From the NCBI RefSeq assembly GCF_006539865.1, contig NZ_BJNV01000047.1:1-41982 (forward strand): 41,982 nt of DNA, given 5' to 3'. This stretch comes from Zoogloea ramigera (GTDB lineage Bacteria; Pseudomonadota; Gammaproteobacteria; Burkholderiales; Rhodocyclaceae). This document shows, in pieces, positions 9,690 to 29,019 of the stretch. The stretch's first letter is position 1, and the number at the start of each line of letters is the position of its first letter. A model generated the notes under the pieces. The model searched no databases. It was given only the letters and a program-made list of their open reading frames with translations, and was not told the DNA's origin. A program made the position numbers and the translations under genes.

Positions 9690-10136
9690 ATGCCCGCCCT
9701 GACGATCCGCGATGGCACCACGCTCGAGAGCCTCAACGCCCGCGGCGTCGGCCACTTGCCGGGCTGGTTCGGCGTCGAGGCGGTCGGCCTCGCCCCCGGG
9801 CGGCTGTCGGCGCGCATGTTGATTCGCCCGGAGATGCTGGCGCCCGACGGCAGCCTGCACGCCGCGGCGATCATCGCCCTGGCCGACACCGCCGCCGCTT
9901 ACGCCACCCGGGCCCACCTGCCCGATGGGGCGGCGAGCTTCGCCACCATCGAGCTCAAGACCAATTTTTTCGGCACCCAGGCCGAGGGCGTGCTGCTGTG
10001 CGAAGCCACCGCCTTGCATGGCGGCCGCCACACCCAGGTGTGGGACGCCGAAGTGAGCAGCGGCGGCAGCGGCAGCCGCCTCGCCCTGTTCCGCTGCACC
10101 CAGCTGATCCAGTGGCCGAAGGGCCTCCAGAACTGA
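9690..10136 (+). CDS. PaaI-family hotdog thioesterase
   Basis: A 148-residue single hotdog-fold protein. The pattern LHAAAIIALADTAAAYATRAHLP matches the central helix of PaaI/4HBT thioesterases, followed by the beta strands IELKTNFFGTQAEG and LLCEATALHGGRHTQVWDAEV. Members hydrolyse acyl-CoA thioesters in the cytosol. It follows the GNAT/carbonic anhydrase gene by 9 bp with a GAGGAGG ribosome binding site, and precedes two HCCA-isomerase-like genes, so it belongs to the LiuR operon. A role in clearing stalled CoA intermediates is plausible but inferred. Confidence 0.87.
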   Translation: MPALTIRDGTTLESLNARGVGHLPGWFGVEAVGLAPGRLSARMLIRPEMLAPDGSLHAAAIIALADTAAAYATRAHLPDGAASFATIELKTNFFGTQAEGVLLCEATALHGGRHTQVWDAEVSSGGSGSRLALFRCTQLIQWPKGLQN

Positions 10137-10146
10137 GGAAACACCG

Positions 10147-10770
10147 ATGACCGATGCCCCGAAGAAACCCGCCGCACCCGTCGATTTCTACTTCGACTTC
10201 TCGTCGCCCTACGGCTATTTCGCCGCCGAGAAGATCGACGCCCTGGCCGCCCGCCATGGGCGCACGGTGCATTGGCACCCCTTCCTGCTGGGGGCCACCT
10301 TCAAGGTGACCGGGCTCGGCCCTCTGCCCGGAATTCCGCTGAAGGGCGCCTATTCGATGCACGACATCGAGCGCTCGGCGCGCTTCTTCGGGCTGCCCTA
10401 CCGGCAGCCGAGCACCTTCCCGATCCCCACCCAGCACGCCGCGCGGGCCTTCCTGTGGCTCAACGACCGCAGCCCCGAAAAGGCGCGGGCCTTCGGGCTG
10501 GCGGCCTACCGGGCGTACTTTGTGGACGACGTGAATATCTCCGATCTGGGCGCGGTGCTCGATATCGCCGCCGGTGTAGGCATCGACCGGGACGTGCTGT
10601 CGGCGGTGCTCGCCGGCACCGAGATCAAGGCGCGTCTCGCCGCCGAGGTGGACCTGGGGCTGGCCCGCGGGGTGTTCGGGTCGCCCTTCATCATTGTCGA
10701 CGGCGAAGCCTTCTGGGGCGCCGACCGGCTGCCGCAGGTCGAGCGCTGGCTGGCCGAGGGCGGGTTTTGA
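10147..10770 (+). CDS. 2-hydroxychromene-2-carboxylate isomerase family protein (first copy)
   Basis: A 207-residue thioredoxin-fold protein of the HCCA isomerase / kappa-class glutathione transferase family. The N-terminal VDFYFDFSSPYGYF carries the conserved Ser that contacts glutathione, and the C-terminal GVFGSPFIIVDGEAFWGADRLPQVERWL is the family end motif. A helical insertion lies between. HCCA isomerases act glutathione-dependently in naphthalene degradation, but no aromatic degradation genes surround it here, so the real substrate in this operon is unknown. It begins 10 bp after the thioesterase with an AGGAAA ribosome binding site. A paralogue follows after 84 bp. Confidence 0.9.
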   Translation: MTDAPKKPAAPVDFYFDFSSPYGYFAAEKIDALAARHGRTVHWHPFLLGATFKVTGLGPLPGIPLKGAYSMHDIERSARFFGLPYRQPSTFPIPTQHAARAFLWLNDRSPEKARAFGLAAYRAYFVDDVNISDLGAVLDIAAGVGIDRDVLSAVLAGTEIKARLAAEVDLGLARGVFGSPFIIVDGEAFWGADRLPQVERWLAEGGF

Positions 10771-10854
10771 GCGCTCCTGCGTTTCCTTGAGAGCCCGGTC
10801 GGGCGTGGATAATAGTCACCTCGCCTGTCGAGCCCTCTTCAACCCGGAGACACC

Positions 10855-11457
10855 ATGTCCGCACCGATCGACTTCTACTTCGACTTTTCCTCGCCCTACG
10901 GCTATCTCGCCTCCGAGCAGATCGAGGCCCTGGCGGCCCGCCACGGCCGTGCCGTGATGTGGCACGCCATCGTGCTCGACGCCCAGTTCCAGCCCCAGGG
11001 CGGCGTCAAGATCCCGCTGGCGCTGCTGCGCACCGAGTACGCCCGGCGTGACTGCGAACGCTCCGCCGCCTTCCTCGGCATCCCCTATAAAACGCCCACG
11101 CCCTACCCGGTGCACACCGAGCACGCCGCCCGTGTCTTCCAGTGGCTCAGCGACCGCAACCCGGACGAGGCCCGTGCCTTCGCCCACGGGGTGTTCCGCG
11201 CCTATTTCGTCGAGGGCCGCAATATTGCCGAGGTGGCCGTGCTGCTCGAGATCGCCGCCACCCTCGGGCTCGACCGCGAGGAGGTCTCGAACGCCTTCTC
11301 CGATCTCGCCACCAAGGCCCGCCTGAAGGCCGAGATCGACCTGGCCGAGGCCCGCGGCGTGTTCGGCTCGCCCTTCTTCATCGTCGAGGGCGAGGGCTTC
11401 TGGGGCCCCGACCGGCTGGCCCAGCTCGAGCGCTGGCTTGAAACCGGCCCGTTCTGA
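10855..11457 (+). CDS. 2-hydroxychromene-2-carboxylate isomerase family protein (second copy)
   Basis: A 200-residue paralogue of the preceding gene. It shares the opening DFYFDFSSPYGY, an ERSAxFxGxPY segment, and the ending GVFGSPFxIVxGExFWGxDRL, but differs in the middle, where a QGGVKIPLALLRTEYARRDC segment shapes the active-site side. The start has a GGAGAC ribosome binding site. The tandem pair probably arose by duplication and then diverged, which suggests two related substrates or a heterodimer. No glutathione genes are adjacent, although gshA and gshB lie about 26 kb away in the window. Confidence 0.9.
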   Translation: MSAPIDFYFDFSSPYGYLASEQIEALAARHGRAVMWHAIVLDAQFQPQGGVKIPLALLRTEYARRDCERSAAFLGIPYKTPTPYPVHTEHAARVFQWLSDRNPDEARAFAHGVFRAYFVEGRNIAEVAVLLEIAATLGLDREEVSNAFSDLATKARLKAEIDLAEARGVFGSPFFIVEGEGFWGPDRLAQLERWLETGPF

Positions 11458-11470
11458 CCCGGAGACAGCC

Positions 11471-12055
11471 ATGAAACGCATCTGCGTGTTCTGCGGCTCG
11501 CGCCCCGGCGTGCGCCCGGCCTATCGGGCGGCGGCCGAGGCCGTCGGCGCGCTGCTGGCCGAGCGGGGCATCGAGCTGGTGTATGGCGGCGGCAACGTCG
11601 GCCTGATGGGCATCGTCGCCGACGCCTGCCTGGCTGCCGGTGGCCGGGTGGTGGGGGTGATCCCCCGTGCGCTGCTCGAATGGGAGGTCGGCCACGAGGG
11701 CCTGACCCGCCTCGAGGTGGTCGATTCGATGCACACCCGCAAGGCCCGCATGGCCGAGCTGGCCGACGGTTTCATGGCCCTGCCGGGCGGGCTGGGTACC
11801 TTCGAGGAGCTCTTCGAAATCCTCACCTGGGCCCAGCTCGGCTTCCACAGCAAGCCGGTCGGCCTGCTCAATGTGGACGCCTATTACCAGCCGCTGGTCC
11901 AGATGATGGAGCGCGGCGTCGCCGAAGGCTTCATGAAGGCCGAGAACCGCGGCCTGTTGCTGGTGGAAGACAACGCGCAGGCGTTGCTGCGGACGATGGG
12001 GGCTTACCACCCGCCGGCTGTCGGCAAGCGCATCCGCGACGAGAAGCAGCTTTAG
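11471..12055 (+). CDS. LOG-family protein (TIGR00730), probable nucleoside-5'-monophosphate phosphoribohydrolase
   Basis: A 194-residue Rossmann-fold protein with CVFCGSRPG at the N-terminus, YGGGNVGLMG, and the hallmark PGGLGTFEELFE near residues 100-112; Arg in SMHTRKARM is also conserved. Members cleave the N-glycosidic bond of cytokinin riboside or purine 5'-monophosphates. The ATG at 11471 was chosen over one at 11438, which lies inside the previous gene, because it follows GGAGACAGCC and starts with the typical MKRICVFCGS. It sits in the liu operon, 13 bp after the second HCCA-like gene and 41 bp before methylcrotonyl-CoA carboxylase. Its link to leucine catabolism is not obvious. Confidence 0.9.
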   Translation: MKRICVFCGSRPGVRPAYRAAAEAVGALLAERGIELVYGGGNVGLMGIVADACLAAGGRVVGVIPRALLEWEVGHEGLTRLEVVDSMHTRKARMAELADGFMALPGGLGTFEELFEILTWAQLGFHSKPVGLLNVDAYYQPLVQMMERGVAEGFMKAENRGLLLVEDNAQALLRTMGAYHPPAVGKRIRDEKQL

Positions 12056-12096
12056 TACAAGCACACCAATAAAAAAGTCGGAGCGAGAGGAGACCC

Positions 12097-13704
<1,608 letters not shown>

Positions 13705-21564: not shown

Positions 21565-22404
21565 ATGCAACTCGTCATCATCAGCGGCCTGTCCGGCTCC
21601 GGCAAGAGCGTCGCGCTCAATGTCATGGAGGATTGCGGGCATTACGTGGTCGACAACCTGCCGTCGGCCCTCCTGCCCCAGCTCGTCACCCACCTGCGCG
21701 GGGCCGGCTACCAGCGCATCGCGGTGGCCATCGACGTGCGTTCGGGCAGCGGCATCGCGGCGCTCCCGCGCCAGCTTGAAACCCTGCGCAGCATGGTGCG
21801 CGACGTGCGCTTCCTGTTCCTCGACGCCCGCGACGACACGCTCATCGCGCGCTTCTCGGAAACCCGCCGCAAGCACCCGCTGGGCGACGACAGCCTGACC
21901 CTCGGCGAGGCCATCGCCCGCGAGCGCGAGGCCCTCGCGCTGGTGGCCGAGCTGGGCCACCGCATCGACACCAGCGACCTGTCGGCCAACACCCTGCGCA
22001 ACTGGGTGAAGAGCTTCATGAACCTCGAGGCCGGCAGCCAGATCACGCTGCTGTTCGAGTCCTTCGGCTTCAAGTACGGCATTCCGGTGGATGCCGACCT
22101 GGTCTTCGACGTGCGCTGCCTGCCCAACCCCCACTACGACCCGGTGTTGCGGCCGCTTACCGGGCGCGACCAGCCGGTCATCGATTTCCTTGAGCGGGTG
22201 CCCGAGGTGGGCCGGATGGTCGGCGACATCTACGCCTTCGTCGCCTCCTGGCTGCCGTCCTACGTCAACGACAACCGCAGCTACCTCACGGTGGCCATCG
22301 GCTGCACCGGCGGCCAGCACCGCTCGGTGTACATCGCCGAACAGCTGGCCGAACGTCTCCGCGATTCCGCCCGCGTTCTGGTGCGGCACCGCTCCTTCAA
22401 GTGA
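21565..22404 (+). CDS. rapZ: RNase adapter protein RapZ
   Basis: A 279-residue P-loop protein. The Walker A motif GLSGSGKS is at residues 8-15, the conserved middle RKHPLGDD follows the Walker B-like FLFLDARDD, and the C-terminal domain holds FGFKYGIPVDADLVFDVRCLPNPHYDP and GCTGGQHRSVYIAEQLA. RapZ in enterobacteria senses glucosamine-6-phosphate and targets a small RNA to RNase E. In betaproteobacteria it usually lies near nitrogen-PTS genes; here the PTS genes are about 10 kb away. The next gene overlaps its stop codon (GTGA). Confidence 0.96.
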   Translation: MQLVIISGLSGSGKSVALNVMEDCGHYVVDNLPSALLPQLVTHLRGAGYQRIAVAIDVRSGSGIAALPRQLETLRSMVRDVRFLFLDARDDTLIARFSETRRKHPLGDDSLTLGEAIAREREALALVAELGHRIDTSDLSANTLRNWVKSFMNLEAGSQITLLFESFGFKYGIPVDADLVFDVRCLPNPHYDPVLRPLTGRDQPVIDFLERVPEVGRMVGDIYAFVASWLPSYVNDNRSYLTVAIGCTGGQHRSVYIAEQLAERLRDSARVLVRHRSFK

Positions 22405-22808
22405 GCCGGGGGCCGGCCCTGCGCGCCTGGCTGGCAGCCTGGGCGCGCCATCTGAGGGCCGGCGACCTGCTGGTGCTGGGCTTGGCGGTGGGGGTGTGCG
22501 TCGCCTCGGCGCTGGCCCTGTGGCAGGGCGGGCGGCCCGACAAGGCCGTCATACGGGCCGGTGGCAAGGTCTTTCTGGAGGTTGATCTCACTGCGCCGCG
22601 CCTCGTCGAGGTGCCGGGGCCGCTGGGCAGCACCCGCATCGAGATCCAGCCCGGCCGGGCCCGGGTGGCGGCCGACCCTGGGCCGCGCCAGTATTGCGTG
22701 CGCCAGGGCTGGCTGGCGACGGCTGGTGCGGTGGCCATCTGCGCGCCCAATCAGGTCAGCCTCGCGCTGGCCGGGCGGAACGCCGCGTATGACTCCCTCA
22801 GCTACTGA
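22401..22808 (+). CDS. NusG domain II-containing protein
   Basis: A 135-residue protein with one N-terminal membrane anchor (GDLLVLGLAVGVCVASALALW) and an extracytoplasmic NusG_II domain recognisable by RAGGKVFLEVDLTAPRLVEVPGPLGSTRIEIQPGRARV and QYCVRQGWLATAGAVAICAPNQV. The family is often found beside Gx transporters and flavin-modified electron transfer proteins; function is unsettled. The start is GTG at 22401, overlapping the rapZ stop codon by 4 nt, with no separate ribosome binding site, so translation should be coupled. It overlaps the next gene by 20 nt. Confidence 0.85.
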   Translation: MSRGPALRAWLAAWARHLRAGDLLVLGLAVGVCVASALALWQGGRPDKAVIRAGGKVFLEVDLTAPRLVEVPGPLGSTRIEIQPGRARVAADPGPRQYCVRQGWLATAGAVAICAPNQVSLALAGRNAAYDSLSY

Positions 22809-23316
22809 AATCGAACTCCGCCCCAGCGCCGACGACCACCGGGTCGCGCGGCACGCGGCGGCGGCCATCGTGCTGACGGTGGCCGAGGCGGCCATCCCGC
22901 TCCCGCTGCCGGGGGTCAAGCCGGGCCTCGCCAACATCGTCACCCTCGTCGTGCTGGCCCGCTGGGGCTGGCGCGAGGCGGTTTGGGTGGCGCTGCTGCG
23001 GGTGATCGTCGGCAGCCTGGTGCTGGGGCAGTTCCTGGCGCCGGGCTTCTTTCTGAGCCTGGCTGGCGGGCTGGCCAGCCTGGTGGCGCTGGGCGTTGCC
23101 GTGCACCTGCCGAGGCGCGTTTTCGGCCCGGTGAGCCACAGCGTGCTGGCGGCCTTCGCCCACTTCGCGGGGCAGCTGGTGGTGGCGCGCATCTGGCTGG
23201 TGCCCCATGATGGGGTGTTCTATCTGGTGCCGGTGTTCGCGCTGGCGGCGACCGTCTTCGGGCTGGTCAACGGGTTGGTGGCGGCGCGGCTGATGGAAGA
23301 CGACGGCGCTGCGTAG
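22789..23316 (+). CDS. Gx transporter family membrane protein
   Basis: A 175-residue membrane protein with the family pattern VLTVAEAAIPLPLPGVKPGLANIVTLVVLARWGWREAVWVALLRVIVGSLV, and further hydrophobic segments to about residue 165. Members are annotated Gx transporter or heptaprenyl diphosphate synthase component I and resemble ECF-type substrate-binding subunits; the substrate is unproven. The ATG at 22789 overlaps the NusG_II gene by 20 nt and gives MTPSATEIELRP before the first membrane segment. The NusG_II-Gx pair is a recurrent unit. The apbE gene often found with it is about 13 kb away here. Confidence 0.85.
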   Translation: MTPSATEIELRPSADDHRVARHAAAAIVLTVAEAAIPLPLPGVKPGLANIVTLVVLARWGWREAVWVALLRVIVGSLVLGQFLAPGFFLSLAGGLASLVALGVAVHLPRRVFGPVSHSVLAAFAHFAGQLVVARIWLVPHDGVFYLVPVFALAATVFGLVNGLVAARLMEDDGAA

Positions 23317-23340: not shown

Positions 23341-24648
23341 ATGAATGGGTCTGTCATGAACAAGATTGAAACGCTGCCGGGTTTGCGGCCGGGCGTCGCG
23401 CGCCGGGAGGTGTGGGCGTGGGCCATGTACGACTTCGCCAACTCCGGCTACACCACGGTGGTGATCACGGCGATCTTCAACGCCTATTTTGTGGCGGTGA
23501 TCGCCGGGGGCGCGGCCTGGGGCACCTTTGCCTGGACGGCGGCGCTGGCGGTGTCCTATGCGGCCATCCTGCTCACCGCGCCCTTTGTGGGCGCCTGGGC
23601 CGACACCCATGGCGCGAAGAAGCGGCTGCTGGCGCTCACTACCGCAGGTTGCGTGCTCGGCACCGCCGGCCTGGCGCTGGCCGGGCCCGGCGCCATTGGC
23701 GTGGCGATCGGCTTTCTGGTGCTGTCCAACTACTGCTTCGGCACCGGCGAGAACCTGATCGCCGCCTTCCTGCCCGAGCTCGCCGACGACGACAGCCTCG
23801 GCAAGGTCTCGGGCTGGGGCTGGAGCCTGGGTTATCTGGGCGGCCTGACCAGCCTCGGGGCGTGCCTCGCCTACATCGCCTGGGCGGAGCCGCAGGGCCA
23901 CGCCGCCGCGGATTATGTGCCGGTGACGATGTTGATCACCGCGCTGCTGTTTGCGGTGGCCTCGGTGCCGACCTTTCTGCTGCTGCGCGAACGCAAGACC
24001 GCCCGTGCCACGGCGCCCATCCCGGTGTGGGCGCGGGTGGCGGGCACCCTGCGCCAGCTTCGCGGCAGCGGCCCCTACCGCGACATGCGCCGCTTCATGG
24101 TGTGCGTGGTTTTTTACCAGGCCGGCATCCAGGCGGTGATCGCGCTGGCGGCCATCTACGCGGTCGAGGCGATGGGTTTCACGACCAGGGAGACCATAGG
24201 CCTGATCTTCGTGGTCAACATCACCGCCGCTCTCGGCGCCTTCGGCTTCGGTTACTGGCAGGACCGCATCGGCCATCGGCGGGCAATCGCCTTCACGCTG
24301 GCCGGCTGGATCGTGATGATCCTGCTGGCCTGGGCGGCGACGCGCCCGCCCTTGTTCTGGCTCGCCGCCAATATCGCCGGCCTGTGCCTGGGCGCCAGCC
24401 AGTCGGCCAGCCGGGCGCTGGTGGGCTACCTGGCGCCGCCGGACCGCCATGGCGAGTTCTTCGGGCTGTGGGGGCTGGCGGTCAAGCTGTCGTCCATCCT
24501 CGGCCCGCTCACCTATGGCGCGGTCACCTGGCTCAGCGGCGGCGACCATCGCCTCGCCATCCTCATCACCGGCAGCTACTTCGTGGTCGGGCTCGTCATC
24601 CTCGCCGGCGTGGATGCCGAGCGCGGGCACCGGAGCGCACAGGCATGA
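23341..24648 (+). CDS. MFS transporter, UMF1/Atg22-like family
   Basis: A 435-residue protein with 12 likely membrane helices. WAMYDFANSGYTTVVITAIFNAYF near the N-terminus is the hallmark of the UMF1 family, and NYCFGTGENLIAAFLPELA and CLGASQSASRALVGYLAPPDRHGEFFGLWGLAVKLSS are also typical. Members are related to fungal Atg22 and of unknown substrate in bacteria. ATG codons at 23341 and 23356 are both possible starts; neither has a clear ribosome binding site. Its stop overlaps the start of the ACP-ligase-acyltransferase gene (ATGA), so the two products are made together. This suggests lipid or lysolipid transport by analogy with LplT-Aas (inference). Confidence 0.9.
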   Translation: MNGSVMNKIETLPGLRPGVARREVWAWAMYDFANSGYTTVVITAIFNAYFVAVIAGGAAWGTFAWTAALAVSYAAILLTAPFVGAWADTHGAKKRLLALTTAGCVLGTAGLALAGPGAIGVAIGFLVLSNYCFGTGENLIAAFLPELADDDSLGKVSGWGWSLGYLGGLTSLGACLAYIAWAEPQGHAAADYVPVTMLITALLFAVASVPTFLLLRERKTARATAPIPVWARVAGTLRQLRGSGPYRDMRRFMVCVVFYQAGIQAVIALAAIYAVEAMGFTTRETIGLIFVVNITAALGAFGFGYWQDRIGHRRAIAFTLAGWIVMILLAWAATRPPLFWLAANIAGLCLGASQSASRALVGYLAPPDRHGEFFGLWGLAVKLSSILGPLTYGAVTWLSGGDHRLAILITGSYFVVGLVILAGVDAERGHRSAQA

Positions 24649-25970
24649 ACGGCACCACGGCGGACACCCTGCTCGCCGTGGTGCGGGTGACCCACGCCGA
24701 GCTGCATCGCCAGTCGACCCCCGCGGCGGTCGAGATCACCCTCGACAGCCGGCTCGAAGGCGACCTCGGCTTCGATAGCCTGGCCCGGGTCGAGCTGCTG
24801 CTGCGCATCGAGCGCGCCTTTGGCGTCGCGCTGCCGGAGGCCACGCTGCAGCACGCCGAGACGCTGCGCGACCTGCTGGCGGCGGTTGCCGCAGCGCCCG
24901 CGCGCGCGGCGCCAGCCGGCGCCATGGCCGCGGTCGTGACGCAGATCGCCGCCGCCGCTGGCGATGCCGCCACCCCGACTACCGCCGCGACCCTGCTCGA
25001 AGTGCTCGACTGGCATGTGCAGGCCCACGGCGAGCGCACCCAGATCGTGCTGCTCACCGAGGGCGACGGCGAGGAGCGGCTCGACTACACGCACCTGCGG
25101 GCCGGTGCGGTGGCCGTGGCGGCGGGGCTCTGCGCCAGCGGCCTGCAGCCGCGGCAGACGGTGGCGATCATGCTGCCAACCTCGCTCGAGTATTTCTTTG
25201 CCTACTTCGGCGTTCTTCTTGCTGGCGGCATCCCGGTGCCGATCTACCCACCGGCGCGGCCTGCGCAGATCGAGGAGCACGTGCGCCGCCACACCGGCAT
25301 CCTCGAGAATGCCGAGGCGAGCATCCTCGTCACCGTGCCGCAGGCGATGACGGTGGCGCGCCTGCTCGAAGCCGGCGTGCCCGGCCTGCGCCGGGTCGTC
25401 ACCGTGGCCGGGCTCACGCAAGGCGTCGCCCGGGCGGCCCCGCTGCGGCCGGCGCGGGGCGACGACATCGCCTTCATCCAGTACACCTCGGGCAGCACCG
25501 GCAACCCCAAGGGCGTGGTGCTGACCCACGCCAACCTGCTGGCCAACATCCGCGCCATTGGCACCGCCATCCGCGTGCAGCCCGACGATGTGTTCGTCAG
25601 CTGGCTGCCGCTCTATCACGATATGGGCCTGATCAGCGCCTGGCTGGTCAGCCTGTATTTCGGCAAGCCGCTGGTGGTGATGTCGCCGCTCGCCTTTCTG
25701 GCGCGGCCGGAGCGCTGGCTGTGGGCGATCCACCGCTACCGCGGCACCCTCAGCGCCGCGCCCAATTTCGCCTTCGAGCTGTGCCTCAAGCGGCTTGCCG
25801 AGGCGCAGCCCGAGGGCCTCGACCTCTCTTCGTTGCGGCTTCTGGCCTGCGGCGCCGAGCCGGTCAACCCCGACACCCTGGCGCGCTTCGCCGCCCGCCT
25901 TGCCGCCAGCGGCCTGCGCCCGGAAGCCCTGGCCCCGGTGTACGGGTTGGCGGAGGCGACGGTGGGCTAG
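24645..25970 (+). CDS. ACP-fatty acyl-AMP ligase, N-terminal part of interrupted fusion
   Basis: 441 residues before an in-frame TAG. Residues about 1-82 are an acyl carrier domain with phosphopantetheine Ser45 in GDLGFDSL. From about residue 115 runs a ligase of the fatty acyl-AMP ligase (FAAL) type: VPIYPPARPAQIEEHVRRH, P-loop YTSGSTGNPKGVVLTH (280-295), SWLPLYHDMGLI and APNFAFELC are FAAL-like. FAALs make acyl-adenylates and load them on ACP rather than CoA. The frame ends inside the A5 motif YGLAEATVG, before the C-terminal subdomain with the catalytic lysine, so this part alone should not be a full enzyme. It overlaps the MFS stop codon (ATGA). Confidence 0.85.
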   Translation: MNGTTADTLLAVVRVTHAELHRQSTPAAVEITLDSRLEGDLGFDSLARVELLLRIERAFGVALPEATLQHAETLRDLLAAVAAAPARAAPAGAMAAVVTQIAAAAGDAATPTTAATLLEVLDWHVQAHGERTQIVLLTEGDGEERLDYTHLRAGAVAVAAGLCASGLQPRQTVAIMLPTSLEYFFAYFGVLLAGGIPVPIYPPARPAQIEEHVRRHTGILENAEASILVTVPQAMTVARLLEAGVPGLRRVVTVAGLTQGVARAAPLRPARGDDIAFIQYTSGSTGNPKGVVLTHANLLANIRAIGTAIRVQPDDVFVSWLPLYHDMGLISAWLVSLYFGKPLVVMSPLAFLARPERWLWAIHRYRGTLSAAPNFAFELCLKRLAEAQPEGLDLSSLRLLACGAEPVNPDTLARFAARLAASGLRPEALAPVYGLAEATVG

Positions 25971-25973
25971 CTG

Positions 25974-27467
25974 GTGCCGCCCCTCGGGCGCCGGCCGAGG
26001 GTCGACCGCATCGACCGCGACCGCTTCGTGAAGACCCGCGAGGCCCGCCCCGCTGCGCCCGGAGACGGGCACGCGCTGGCCTTCGTCTCCTGCGGCCGGC
26101 CCTTGCCCGGCCATCAGGTGCGCATCGTCGATGAAACCGGGCTGGAGCTTGGCGAGCGGGTCGAGGGCCGGCTGGAGTTCAAGGGGCCGTCGGCGACCGC
26201 GGGCTATCACCGCAATCCGGAGCAGACCCGCCGGCTCTTCCATGGCGACTGGCTGGACAGCGGCGACCGCGCCTACAGCGTCGAGGGCGAGGTTTTCGTC
26301 ACTGGCCGCGTCAAGGACATCATCATCCGCGCGGGGCGCAACATCTACCCCCACGAGCTGGAGCTGGCCGTGGGCGAACTGCCCGGCGTGCGCAAGGGCT
26401 GCGTCGCGGTCTTCGGCAGCCTTGATCCGGCGGCGGGCACCGAGCGCCTGGTGGTGCTCGCCGAGACCCAGGCTACCGACCCGGTACAGCGCGCGGCGCT
26501 GCAGGCCGACATCGCCCGGCTGGCGCTGGAGGTGCTGGGCGAGGCGGCCGACGAGGTGGTGCTGGCGCCACCCCACACGGTGCTCAAGACGTCCAGTGGC
26601 AAGGTGCGCCGCTCGGCCTGCCGTGAGCGCTATGAGGCCGGGCTGATCGGCACCCGTCCGCCCGCCGCCGGGTGGCAGATCGCGCGGCTCGCGTTGGCTG
26701 CGGCTGCTGCGCGGGCCCGCCGCGGGCGGGTGCTGGCCGGTGAAGTCACCCACGCCATCCGCGTCGGGGTGTTGTGTGCGCTGATCGCCCCGCTGACCTG
26801 GCTGGTGACGGCGGCGCTGCCCCGGCCGAGCTGGGCCTGGGCGGTCGGCCGCTTGGCGGCGCGGGTGTTCCTGCGCCTCTGTGGCACGCCAGTTAGCGTG
26901 GAGGGCGTGGCCAATTTGCCGCCGCCCGGGCAGGTCCATGTACTGGTCGCCAATCACGCTAGCTACGTCGACGGCATCGTGCTGGCCGCCGCGCTGCCCC
27001 GGCATGTGAGTTTCGTTGCCAAGCGCGAGCTCGCCGGGCAATTTATTCCGCGGGTCTATCTGCGGCGGCTGGGCGTGGAGTTCGTCGAGCGCTTCGACGT
27101 GAAGCAGGGCGCCGCGGATGCAGACCGGCTGGCGGCGGCGGTGGCCAGCGGGCGCTCGCTGGCGGTTTTCCCGGAGGGCACCTTCACGCGCATTCCTGGC
27201 CTGCGGCCGTTTCACTTGGGCGCCTTCGCCGCCGCCGCCCGGGCCCGTGTGCCGGTGGTGCCGGTGGCGATCCGCGGCAGCCGAGGATGGTTGCGCGCCG
27301 ACCAGTGGTTTCCGCGCCGCAGCCGGCTGGAGGTGTTCATCGGCACGCCGATTCCGCCGTCTGAGGACGCCGTCGATGAGTTCAGTGCGGCGGTCCGCCT
27401 GCGCGACGCGGCGCGGGCCGAGATCCTGCAGCGTTGCGGCGAGCCGGCGGTCGTCTCCGACACCTGA
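25974..27467 (+). CDS. ligase C-terminal subdomain plus PlsC acyltransferase, second part of interrupted fusion
   Basis: 497 residues if read from the GTG at 25974, 4 bp after the amber stop, with GGTGGG 7 nt upstream as a possible re-initiation site. The first 220 residues complete the ligase: SGDRAYSVEGEVFVTGRVKDIIIRAGRNIYPHELE and the catalytic Lys210 in TSSGKVRR. A hydrophobic segment lies near 263-283. Residues about 305-470 are a PlsC acyltransferase with NHASYVD (327-333, catalytic His328 and Asp333) and FPEGTFTR (399-406). This domain acylates lysophospholipids or similar acceptors at the membrane. It converges with the RNase HI-like gene, 13 bp away. Confidence 0.8.
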   Translation: MPPLGRRPRVDRIDRDRFVKTREARPAAPGDGHALAFVSCGRPLPGHQVRIVDETGLELGERVEGRLEFKGPSATAGYHRNPEQTRRLFHGDWLDSGDRAYSVEGEVFVTGRVKDIIIRAGRNIYPHELELAVGELPGVRKGCVAVFGSLDPAAGTERLVVLAETQATDPVQRAALQADIARLALEVLGEAADEVVLAPPHTVLKTSSGKVRRSACRERYEAGLIGTRPPAAGWQIARLALAAAAARARRGRVLAGEVTHAIRVGVLCALIAPLTWLVTAALPRPSWAWAVGRLAARVFLRLCGTPVSVEGVANLPPPGQVHVLVANHASYVDGIVLAAALPRHVSFVAKRELAGQFIPRVYLRRLGVEFVERFDVKQGAADADRLAAAVASGRSLAVFPEGTFTRIPGLRPFHLGAFAAAARARVPVVPVAIRGSRGWLRADQWFPRRSRLEVFIGTPIPPSEDAVDEFSAAVRLRDAARAEILQRCGEPAVVSDT

Positions 27468-27966: not shown

Positions 27967-28326
27967 GGTCGCTGCGTGCAGGCTCGGAGTGATGGCCCCG
28001 GACTGTACCGCCAGCAGCCGGGGCTGTGGTGCCCGCTGTGCGAGCGGGGATCGTACTTTGTTAAATACCTGCGGGCGGCATGGCAGGGCGTCATGTACTC
28101 GCTATGAATCGCGAGGATATTGGATCAATATGGAGTCAGGAGAGATGCGCTAAAAAGGTTCCGAATCGTGGTGATGTTTGCTGCTTACGATCAATATTTC
28201 AGTGAAACCGGGGTTGCTGTCAAAGGAGGCTGGCAACCGGCGAATCATCTCCTGGCGCCTGGCGGAGAGGCCCACCCTGCGGCGGGAGTACCGCAAATCC
28301 ATCATGTGAAAGAAGAGAGGGGACAA
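27967..28326. other. 360-bp gene-free region upstream of the PEP-CTERM gene
   Basis: This region lies between the divergent RNase HI-like and PEP-CTERM genes and is less GC-rich than its surroundings in its second half. It holds a 7-bp dyad, GCCCCGG (27995-28001) and CCGGGGC (28018-28024); a 6-bp dyad, CCCGCT (28032-28037) and AGCGGG (28043-28048); and a 15-bp palindrome at 28117-28131. I see no gene in it. The PEP-CTERM frame stays open upstream to 28120, but the signal peptide and ribosome binding site place its start at 28327. Confidence 0.6.
28117..28131. promoter_or_regulatory. palindrome, candidate operator
   Basis: ATATTG (28117-28122) and CAATAT (28126-28131) flank GAT. The half-site GATCAATAT recurs at 28189-28197, 66 bp further on. 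The AT-rich dyad stands out in a GC-rich genome and lies about 200 bp before the PEP-CTERM gene. The regulator is unknown. Confidence 0.4.
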
Positions 28327-29019
28327 ATGAAGACAGCTTCTGGTTTTGGCGCAGCCCTGGCCCTGGTGGCCGTGATCGCAGCGGCGCCGGCAGGTGCGGC
28401 GGAAGTCCGCATCGCGACCTTGCCCGGGACAGGGTGGCAGGTCACCGACGTGGCGCCCACTGCGGGCTGGACCTCGGTTGGCTACGACACCGCGGGCTGG
28501 GTCGAGCCCACCGTTCTCACCGCGCTGGAGGCCAGCCCGGGGGCGCCGTTGCTCTCACCCCCGGCCGGGCAGGAGCGGGCGCATATGGTGTGGATGGGAG
28601 GCGCGTCGCCTGGCGGAACGGGAGGGCCGGACCACATCTATCTGCGCAACGAATTCTCCCTTGGCGCCTTTGCGCTGGGCCAGGCCTTGAATTCGCTGGC
28701 GCAAATGCAGGTCGACGATGACTTCGCCCTCTACGTGAATGGCAATCTGGTCTATCTGAATGCCGACCAGGGCTTTGCCGACCGGATCTTCACGCTCAGC
28801 TTTGGCAATTATCTGCGCGCGGGCGAGCTGAACGTGATTGCCATCGAGGCCGTCGATGGGCAGTGGGGATCTCCGCACGATCGCGGATTGCAGGATGTGC
28901 AGTTCGACGCGACCATCTCCTCAGGCGTGGTGACGGTGCCCGAGCCCGCCAGCGCGGGGCTTGCAGCCCTGGGGCTGGCCGGGCTTGCAGGCCTCGGCCG
29001 CTTGCGTCGGCGCAGCTGA
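28327..29019 (+). CDS. PEP-CTERM sorting domain protein
   Basis: A 230-residue exported protein. An N-terminal signal peptide (GFGAALALVAVIAAAPAGAA) probably ends near residue 25. The C-terminus is a classic PEP-CTERM signal: VPEP at residues 204-207, a hydrophobic Gly/Ala/Leu stretch, then RLRRRS. Exosortase processes such proteins for the cell surface or exopolysaccharide matrix, notably in floc- and biofilm-forming betaproteobacteria. The body is a beta-rich domain without cysteines (DDDFALYVNGNLVYLN, ELNVIAIEAVDGQ), resembling carbohydrate-binding jelly-roll folds of other PEP-CTERM proteins (weak). The ATG has AGAGGGG upstream. No exosortase gene is in the window. Confidence 0.92.
   Translation: MKTASGFGAALALVAVIAAAPAGAAEVRIATLPGTGWQVTDVAPTAGWTSVGYDTAGWVEPTVLTALEASPGAPLLSPPAGQERAHMVWMGGASPGGTGGPDHIYLRNEFSLGAFALGQALNSLAQMQVDDDFALYVNGNLVYLNADQGFADRIFTLSFGNYLRAGELNVIAIEAVDGQWGSPHDRGLQDVQFDATISSGVVTVPEPASAGLAALGLAGLAGLGRLRRRS

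Follow-up and report, generated by a model that had tools for sequence, protein, structure and literature searches.

The window analyzed here, a stretch of 41,982 nucleotides from Zoogloea ramigera (assembly GCF_006539865.1, contig NZ_BJNV01000047.1) that is contig C47 among the 207 contigs of an assembly of 4.6 Mb, contains a gene for a UMF1-family transporter of the major facilitator superfamily (MFS), which overlaps a gene for an enzyme composed of an acyl carrier protein (ACP) domain, a fatty acyl-AMP ligase (FAAL) and a PlsC acyltransferase. On balance, the intact homologues of this ACP-FAAL-PlsC enzyme probably act as self-contained acyltransferases that carry fatty acids to lipids independently of coenzyme A (CoA), with UMF1 as a facultative partner that would transport either the lipid to be acylated or the acylated lipid. 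The pairing of the two genes is recurrent but facultative, and the genome studied here has the module in addition to Aas and LplT, not in place of them.

Domain Organization and Spread of the Enzyme

The enzyme gene occupies positions 24645..27467 of the forward strand, on which all features of this locus lie unless stated otherwise, and is interrupted by one TAG codon; read with an X at that codon, the frame gives 940 residues that are colinear with homologues. The protein begins with a carrier (PP-binding) domain at residues 28–81 (24726..24887; PF00550, 44.2 bits, cut-off 20.8), in which Ser45 of an FDSL motif is encoded at 24777–24779, and continues with the ligase domain at residues 115–666 (24987..26642; PF00501, with the AMP-binding match starting at residue 122). 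A hydrophobic segment, read from the translation with limits that are approximate and set by eye (26761..26823), precedes the PlsC domain at residues 750–876 (26892..27272; PF01553, 85.2 bits, cut-off 23). In the predicted structure of an intact homologue from Pseudomaricurvus alkylphenolicus (locus L086, enzyme gene at 9974-12796; mean predicted local distance difference test score, pLDDT, 83.5), a long helix at 680–729 matches this hydrophobic segment.

Residue conservation was counted in 88 aligned rows, namely those of more than 880 residues among 96, which include both L040 and L108 from the same genome. Ser45 is invariant in 88/88 rows and stands in a DSL-type motif that would accept phosphopantetheine, as expected of an acyl carrier protein, while H771, D776, E844 and G845, which make up the HxxxxD and EG signatures of the PlsC domain, are likewise found in every row. 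For the ligase, PMC8460268 gives W224, M231, F279, the helix T252–R258, P107 and P226 as the elements of EcFAAL that exclude CoA; mapped by eye on the alignment, these correspond to W320, M327, F375, P348–R354, P203 and P322 of the window protein. Positions W320, F375, P348, F351, P203 and P322 are invariant in all 88 rows, and M327 (84/88) and R354 (75/88) are less strict.

The ligase is accordingly predicted to be FAAL-like rather than a CoA ligase, being nearer to FAALs in sequence and fold and carrying both the residues that block the CoA pocket and the FAAL-specific helix. The list of related solved structures opens with 18 entries (1.7e-83 to 3.8e-48), 15 of the FAAL type plus three adenylation domains of nonribosomal peptide synthetases (6ulx, 6ulw, 4r0m), and entries of the CoA-ligase type begin only at 2.9e-35; the first 27 fold matches of the L086 model are also FAAL-type. 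In the region considered for the FAAL-specific insertion, whose limits are approximate, the stretch 437–484 aligns to EcFAAL with short gaps only, as against about 19 residues, counted by eye, in the genome's own Aas. The window ligase resembles EcFAAL (3pbk), LpFAAL (3kxw) and the FAAL of the Synechococcus olefin synthase (7r7e) in sequence, fold and CoA-excluding residues, and differs from them in being fused to PlsC. Fusions of some bacterial FAAL-like domains with lysophospholipid acyltransferases are mentioned in PMC8460268 without a function, and the FAAL-acyltransferase fusion itself is therefore already known from that source.

The sequence-only reading of this locus had described a UMF1 gene in ATGA overlap with a gene encoding, in order, a carrier domain (Ser45), a fatty acyl-AMP ligase, a hydrophobic stretch and a PlsC domain in the same chain; sequence and Pfam matches bear out each of these parts and their order. 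To this must be added that the frame is divided by the TAG at codon 442. The ACP-FAAL-PlsC arrangement is more than a product of chance, and stop-free homologues exist elsewhere.

A protein search of 59 relatives (60 genomes with the own one) yielded 11 stop-free copies in 10 of them. With a family profile, the enzyme was detected both in the order (46 of 399 genomes) and in a phylum-wide draw (6 of 398 genomes), the own genome being included in both counts. From a further scan of named genomes the best 80 loci were taken, some of them ending at contig ends, and these represent Pseudomonadota, Thermodesulfobacteriota, Acidobacteriota, Nitrospirota, Tectimicrobiota and Actinomycetota.

Recurrent Linkage with UMF1

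The transporter gene (23341..24648, with a second in-frame ATG at 23356) encodes 435 residues that match the ATG22 family (PF11700, 133.5 bits, cut-off 24.1), corresponding to the UMF1 family, TC 2.A.1.24; it is the only gene with such a match in the genome. Its AlphaFold2 model (mean pLDDT 90.6) adopts an MFS fold, and its stop codon overlaps the start of the enzyme gene in the sequence ATGA at 24645..24648.

The surroundings of the enzyme were compared in 91 loci, consisting of the 11 from relatives and the best 80 from named genomes and amounting to 1.54 Mb, with neighbors called by a custom script and called genes present on both sides of the enzyme in 71 of them. A UMF1 gene directly adjoins the enzyme gene in nine of the 91 loci, with matches 12–498 nucleotides (nt) away, and none was found elsewhere in these loci at E 1e-5; as only the best 80 named loci were kept, this count leans toward relatives of the window gene. 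In Pseudomaricurvus alkylphenolicus (L086), UMF1 lies upstream with an 8-nt overlap, in the same order as in the window. UMF1 stands downstream on the same strand in L043, L109 and L126, is divergent from the enzyme in L052, L069 and L112 and convergent with it in L102, and survives in L128, from a Polaromonas metagenome-assembled genome, as a 3' remnant directly upstream (L128:9645-9938; residues 358–433, about 76 aligned). The pairing, which the sequence-only reading had described from one locus, therefore extends beyond this genome in several arrangements, and the idea that it is unique to this genome was ruled out by these nine loci, L086 among them. As a rough estimate, at about one UMF1 per ~4,000 genes, the adjacency expected would be far below one in 91 loci.

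Phylogenetic trees, which were quick searches without a mixture model, suggest that this linkage arose repeatedly. On the enzyme tree of 95 rows (L040 being left out because it comes from the same genome as L108), the 11 rows labeled for adjacency, i.e., the window, the nine loci and L134, in which an antisense open reading frame (ORF) lies between the two genes, need eight changes, and supported branches force all eight, although the tree does not separate gains from losses. The linked UMF1 proteins do not form one clade (six changes, four forced): the window UMF1 groups with UMF1s of its own family, G283 and G222, neither of which adjoins an enzyme gene, and those of L126 and L102 share only 29% and 25% identity with it while both exceeding the PF11700 cut-off. 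As distinct UMF1 lineages are linked, the enzyme appears to have been joined repeatedly with different resident UMF1 genes.

These results bear on the explanation that the two genes are linked by a common context of regulation or insertion; the cargo of UMF1 would then be a small solute, and the pairing would say nothing about lipids. UMF1 is widespread alone and has varied neighbors, and the family name, vacuole effluxer, comes from Atg22; yeast Atg22 carries a small solute. An accidental context is nevertheless hard to reconcile with the finding that UMF1 genes of different lineages adjoin the enzyme gene in several arrangements, and this explanation is considered improbable.

Within six genes of the enzyme, UMF1 is the only neighbor cluster of at least five loci that is confined to the adjoining positions; two four-locus clusters, with examples from L040 and L094, are confined in the same manner. 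This pattern matters for the alternative in which UMF1 is the exporter of a dedicated non-phospholipid made by the enzyme, such as an amino- or glycolipid with an O-acyl group. Specialized products are where FAALs typically channel fatty acids according to PMC8460268, and the patchy spread of the enzyme (6 of 398 genomes in the phylum-wide draw) as well as a ceramidase-like membrane protein in two linked loci would suit such a role; however, with no cluster of that size confined to the adjoining positions besides UMF1, no head-group gene stands out, and a dedicated lipid of this kind is regarded as possible but unlikely.

The ceramidase-like protein is encoded beside UMF1 and the ACP-FAAL-PlsC gene at L134:9453-10469 (reverse strand) and L128:8758-9552 (forward strand). 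The two proteins, which resemble members of the CREST superfamily, share 44% identity and score 20.9 and 18.2 bits, below the Pfam cut-off of 32.5, while the enzymes of L134 and L128 sit in different clades; further matches at E 1e-3 were absent from the loci scanned and from the window. This neighbor is a weak hint of a lipid setting.

Relation to LplT and Aas

In Escherichia coli, Aas and LplT resemble the window module in that a free fatty acid is activated, loaded on a carrier and passed on by a PlsC-fold domain, with an MFS gene adjoining. The window module differs in that its carrier is in cis, its ligase is of the FAAL type and UMF1 takes the place of LplT, and its domain order, ACP-FAAL-PlsC, contrasts with the PlsC-ligase order of E. 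coli Aas. The window enzyme lies below the cut-off of 886 of the Aas model NF005959, which is not among the 25 best of the 109 models that match it (the 25th scoring 125.7 bits), and the window UMF1 gives no match to the LplT model NF008397 at E 1e-5. Transporter, acyltransferase and ligase are also combined in the MFS-PlsC-AAS tri-fusions annotated as acyl-[ACP]--phospholipid O-acyltransferase (PRK08633 and PRK06814), to which the window enzyme (P0001) scores 185.3 and 153.9 bits against cut-offs of 1221 and 1349, its polypeptide having no MFS part.

The own genome encodes an Aas orthologue at C15:11576-13702 (55% identity to the E. coli protein; NF005959, 958.9 bits, cut-off 886) and an LplT at C1:8779-9933 (NF008397, 596.9 bits, cut-off 297). 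On contig C15 of this genome (G000; L153:3577-9275), a gene for an LplT-like MFS protein fused to PlsC comes after aas at a distance of no more than about 2 kb, with LplT on another contig. LplT was found in 0/91 of the enzyme loci at E 1e-5. Across whole genomes holding the enzyme, LplT homologues (E 1e-10) occur in 53 of 57, some of them weak and in frames of 630–1170 residues, and Aas (E 1e-60) occurs in 17 of 57, some matches covering the ligase part only. In the order, Aas accompanies the enzyme in 13 of the 46 genomes that hold it and is found in 95 of the 353 that do not (p 0.86), and its presence is unrelated to UMF1 (50 of 181 genomes with UMF1 versus 58 of 218 without, p 0.82); these tests of co-occurrence ignore kinship. 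The frequency of Aas is thus the same whether or not a genome holds the enzyme, and the module is neither a substitute for Aas nor a companion of it.

The sequence-only reading had interpreted the pair as a possible non-orthologous LplT-Aas system, to be compared across genomes with the presence or absence of lplT-aas. Its components, i.e., the FAAL, the cis carrier, PlsC and a recurrent UMF1 partner, have stood, whereas the replacement has not: no complementary pattern was seen for Aas, LplT homologues accompany the enzyme in nearly all genomes that hold it, and this genome retains both Aas and LplT intact.

As an analogue of LplT-Aas in the full sense, the pair would form a second route of repair in addition to the canonical one, with UMF1 flipping lysophospholipids to the inner side and the enzyme acylating them again. 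The logic of the parts is the same and the UMF1 linkage recurs, and PMC11416262, in which the interaction of LplT with Aas was tested, suggests that lysophospholipids may also be transported by other members of the MFS and notes LplT-Aas fusions. However, Aas and LplT are already present here, the UMF1 protein does not match the LplT model at E 1e-5, 154 of 181 UMF1-holding genomes do not hold the enzyme, and the PlsC domain has a higher score against E. coli PlsC (78.8 bits) than against E. coli Aas (59.6 bits). This full analogy is therefore doubtful.

The In-Frame TAG Codon

The TAG (25968..25970) splits the enzyme frame into 24645-25970 and 25974-27467 as assembled. Selection on the two parts was compared through the ratio of nonsynonymous to synonymous substitution rates (dN/dS). 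Against L036, the nearest homologue (67% identity), the ratio is 0.36 before the TAG and 0.30 after it; the corresponding values are 0.30 and 0.34 against L052, and 0.19 and 0.29 against the distant L086, while the intact pair L036/L052 gives 0.35 and 0.32 for the same two parts. Third-position GC is 0.92 on one side and 0.89 on the other, and no frameshift was found in the window gene. The similar ratios imply that the part after the TAG was under protein-level selection until recently, with slight relaxation at most; as constraint applies on both sides, the stop should be recent, erroneous or read through. The TAG is thus best taken as a recent mutation, an assembly error or a partially read-through codon.

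Recoding of TAG was also considered and is thought unlikely: the adjoining upstream gene uses TAG as its ordinary stop (23314–23316), and the window contains no tRNA, the search for a suppressor tRNA covering the window rather than the whole genome. Alternatively, the window copy may be a dying gene, leaving the locus here without acylation function. The in-frame TAG itself, together with the result that 0/22 same-genus genomes searched give a full-length family match, favors decay, whereas the lack of a frameshift and dN/dS values against L036 and L052 like those of an intact pair argue for a gene in recent use; decay is a serious possibility, though held at somewhat below even.

Proposed Mechanism

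The chemistry of FAAL, ACP and PlsC domains is established and provides the basis for the proposed order of reactions. The FAAL domain would adenylate a free fatty acid, the acyl group would then pass to the phosphopantetheine arm on Ser45 of the enzyme's own carrier domain, and the membrane-bound PlsC domain would, without CoA, hand it over at the inner membrane to an acceptor that is a glycerolipid or a lysolipid. Where UMF1 is linked, its most likely task is to carry either this acceptor or the acylated product across that membrane. This order, the class of acceptor and the cargo of UMF1 are what we infer from domain content, and import of a lysolipid by UMF1 in particular is viewed with little confidence.

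A number of results weigh against this mechanism or against a strict partnership of the two genes. As assembled, the window product would have neither the C-terminal part of the ligase nor any of PlsC, and literature searches found no biochemistry for either gene. The PlsC domain scores highest to E. coli PlsC but nearly as high to the genome's own MFS-PlsC fusion (76.8 bits), and thus the acceptor is not settled by these scores; at E 1, the sole match in the PDB is 5kym, a 1-acyl-glycerol-3-phosphate acyltransferase. In fold, the window UMF1 is nearest to VMAT, NorA and SV2, and in sequence the closest PDB entries are SV2 and further proteins of the MFS; both comparisons are uninformative for a lipid cargo. 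On the enzyme tree the adjacency label is clustered, only 2–4 of 500 shuffles being as low against a shuffle mean of 10.6 changes, so that part of the linkage count is inheritance. UMF1 exceeds its cut-off in 36 of the 57 whole genomes that hold the enzyme, but coordinates place it within about 1 kb of the enzyme in only three (G000, G023 and G400, the last being the genome of L134), a count in which contig breaks can hide cases of adjacency. In the order, 27 of the 46 enzyme-holding genomes have UMF1, versus 154 of the 353 others, a weak association (p 0.06, kinship again being ignored). Moreover, the enzyme lies within three genes of UMF1 in only one (L134) of 60 UMF1 loci, which are 61 minus L131, the second piece of a gene in L150, and include L174 and L178 without a called neighbor. 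As UMF1 is mostly found away from the enzyme, it must have a job without it.

The closest relative of the window UMF1 among those compared is that of G283, and on one contig of the same genome UMF1 and an ACP-FAAL-PlsC gene lie 15 kb apart (G283:C8:71007-90462). In 11 of the 60 UMF1 loci (e.g., L163:2981-4432 and L133:9439-10986), the next gene after UMF1, running in the same direction, encodes a protein of about 500 residues; two members scanned gave no Pfam match at E 0.01. This protein aside, the neighbors of UMF1 genes without the enzyme offered no hint of a cargo, and literature searches on Atg22 and lipids provided no lead on it. In PMC3924187, the UMF1 substrate is listed as unknown.

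Neighboring Genes

Upstream of the pair, genes for RapZ, a NusG_II protein and an Hpre_diP_synt_I protein (21565..23316, identified by Pfam) are tightly spaced on the same strand, and the UMF1 gene starts 24 nt past the end of the last of them; a promoter scan found none. At L096:193-7391, genes for HMGL-like, metallo-beta-lactamase-fold, RapZ, NusG_II and Hpre proteins are arranged as in the window and are followed by ACP-FAAL-PlsC with no UMF1. Downstream, an RNase H-like gene is convergent with the enzyme gene, and window positions 28120-29019 encode a predicted secreted protein whose end carries, as noted by eye, what we take to be a PEP-CTERM-like sorting signal.

Significance for UMF1 and FAAL Proteins

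Literature searches on UMF1, FAAL, PlsC, lysophospholipid acyltransferase and ACP found no report that links UMF1 with a PlsC/FAAL enzyme, nor one that connects the family TC 2.A.1.24 with an acyltransferase as at the window locus. The recurrent neighborhood of UMF1 with a self-loading acyltransferase provides a concrete hypothesis for the cargo of UMF1, and side-by-side genes in several distant bacteria hint that UMF1 moves lipids. More speculatively, UMF1 could be a family of lipid or lysolipid flippases, and UMF1 with ACP-FAAL-PlsC a second, CoA-independent module of membrane-lipid acylation that has its own carrier, was assembled several times from resident UMF1 genes and is kept beside LplT-Aas; this wider proposal is tentative, and we would not yet expect it to be correct. 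Intact genes are available in named strains, Pseudomaricurvus alkylphenolicus (L086) and Pseudomonas carbonaria (L112). With an enzyme of this kind, FAALs would also gain a role in the acylation of membrane lipids, outside the polyketide and peptide assembly lines.

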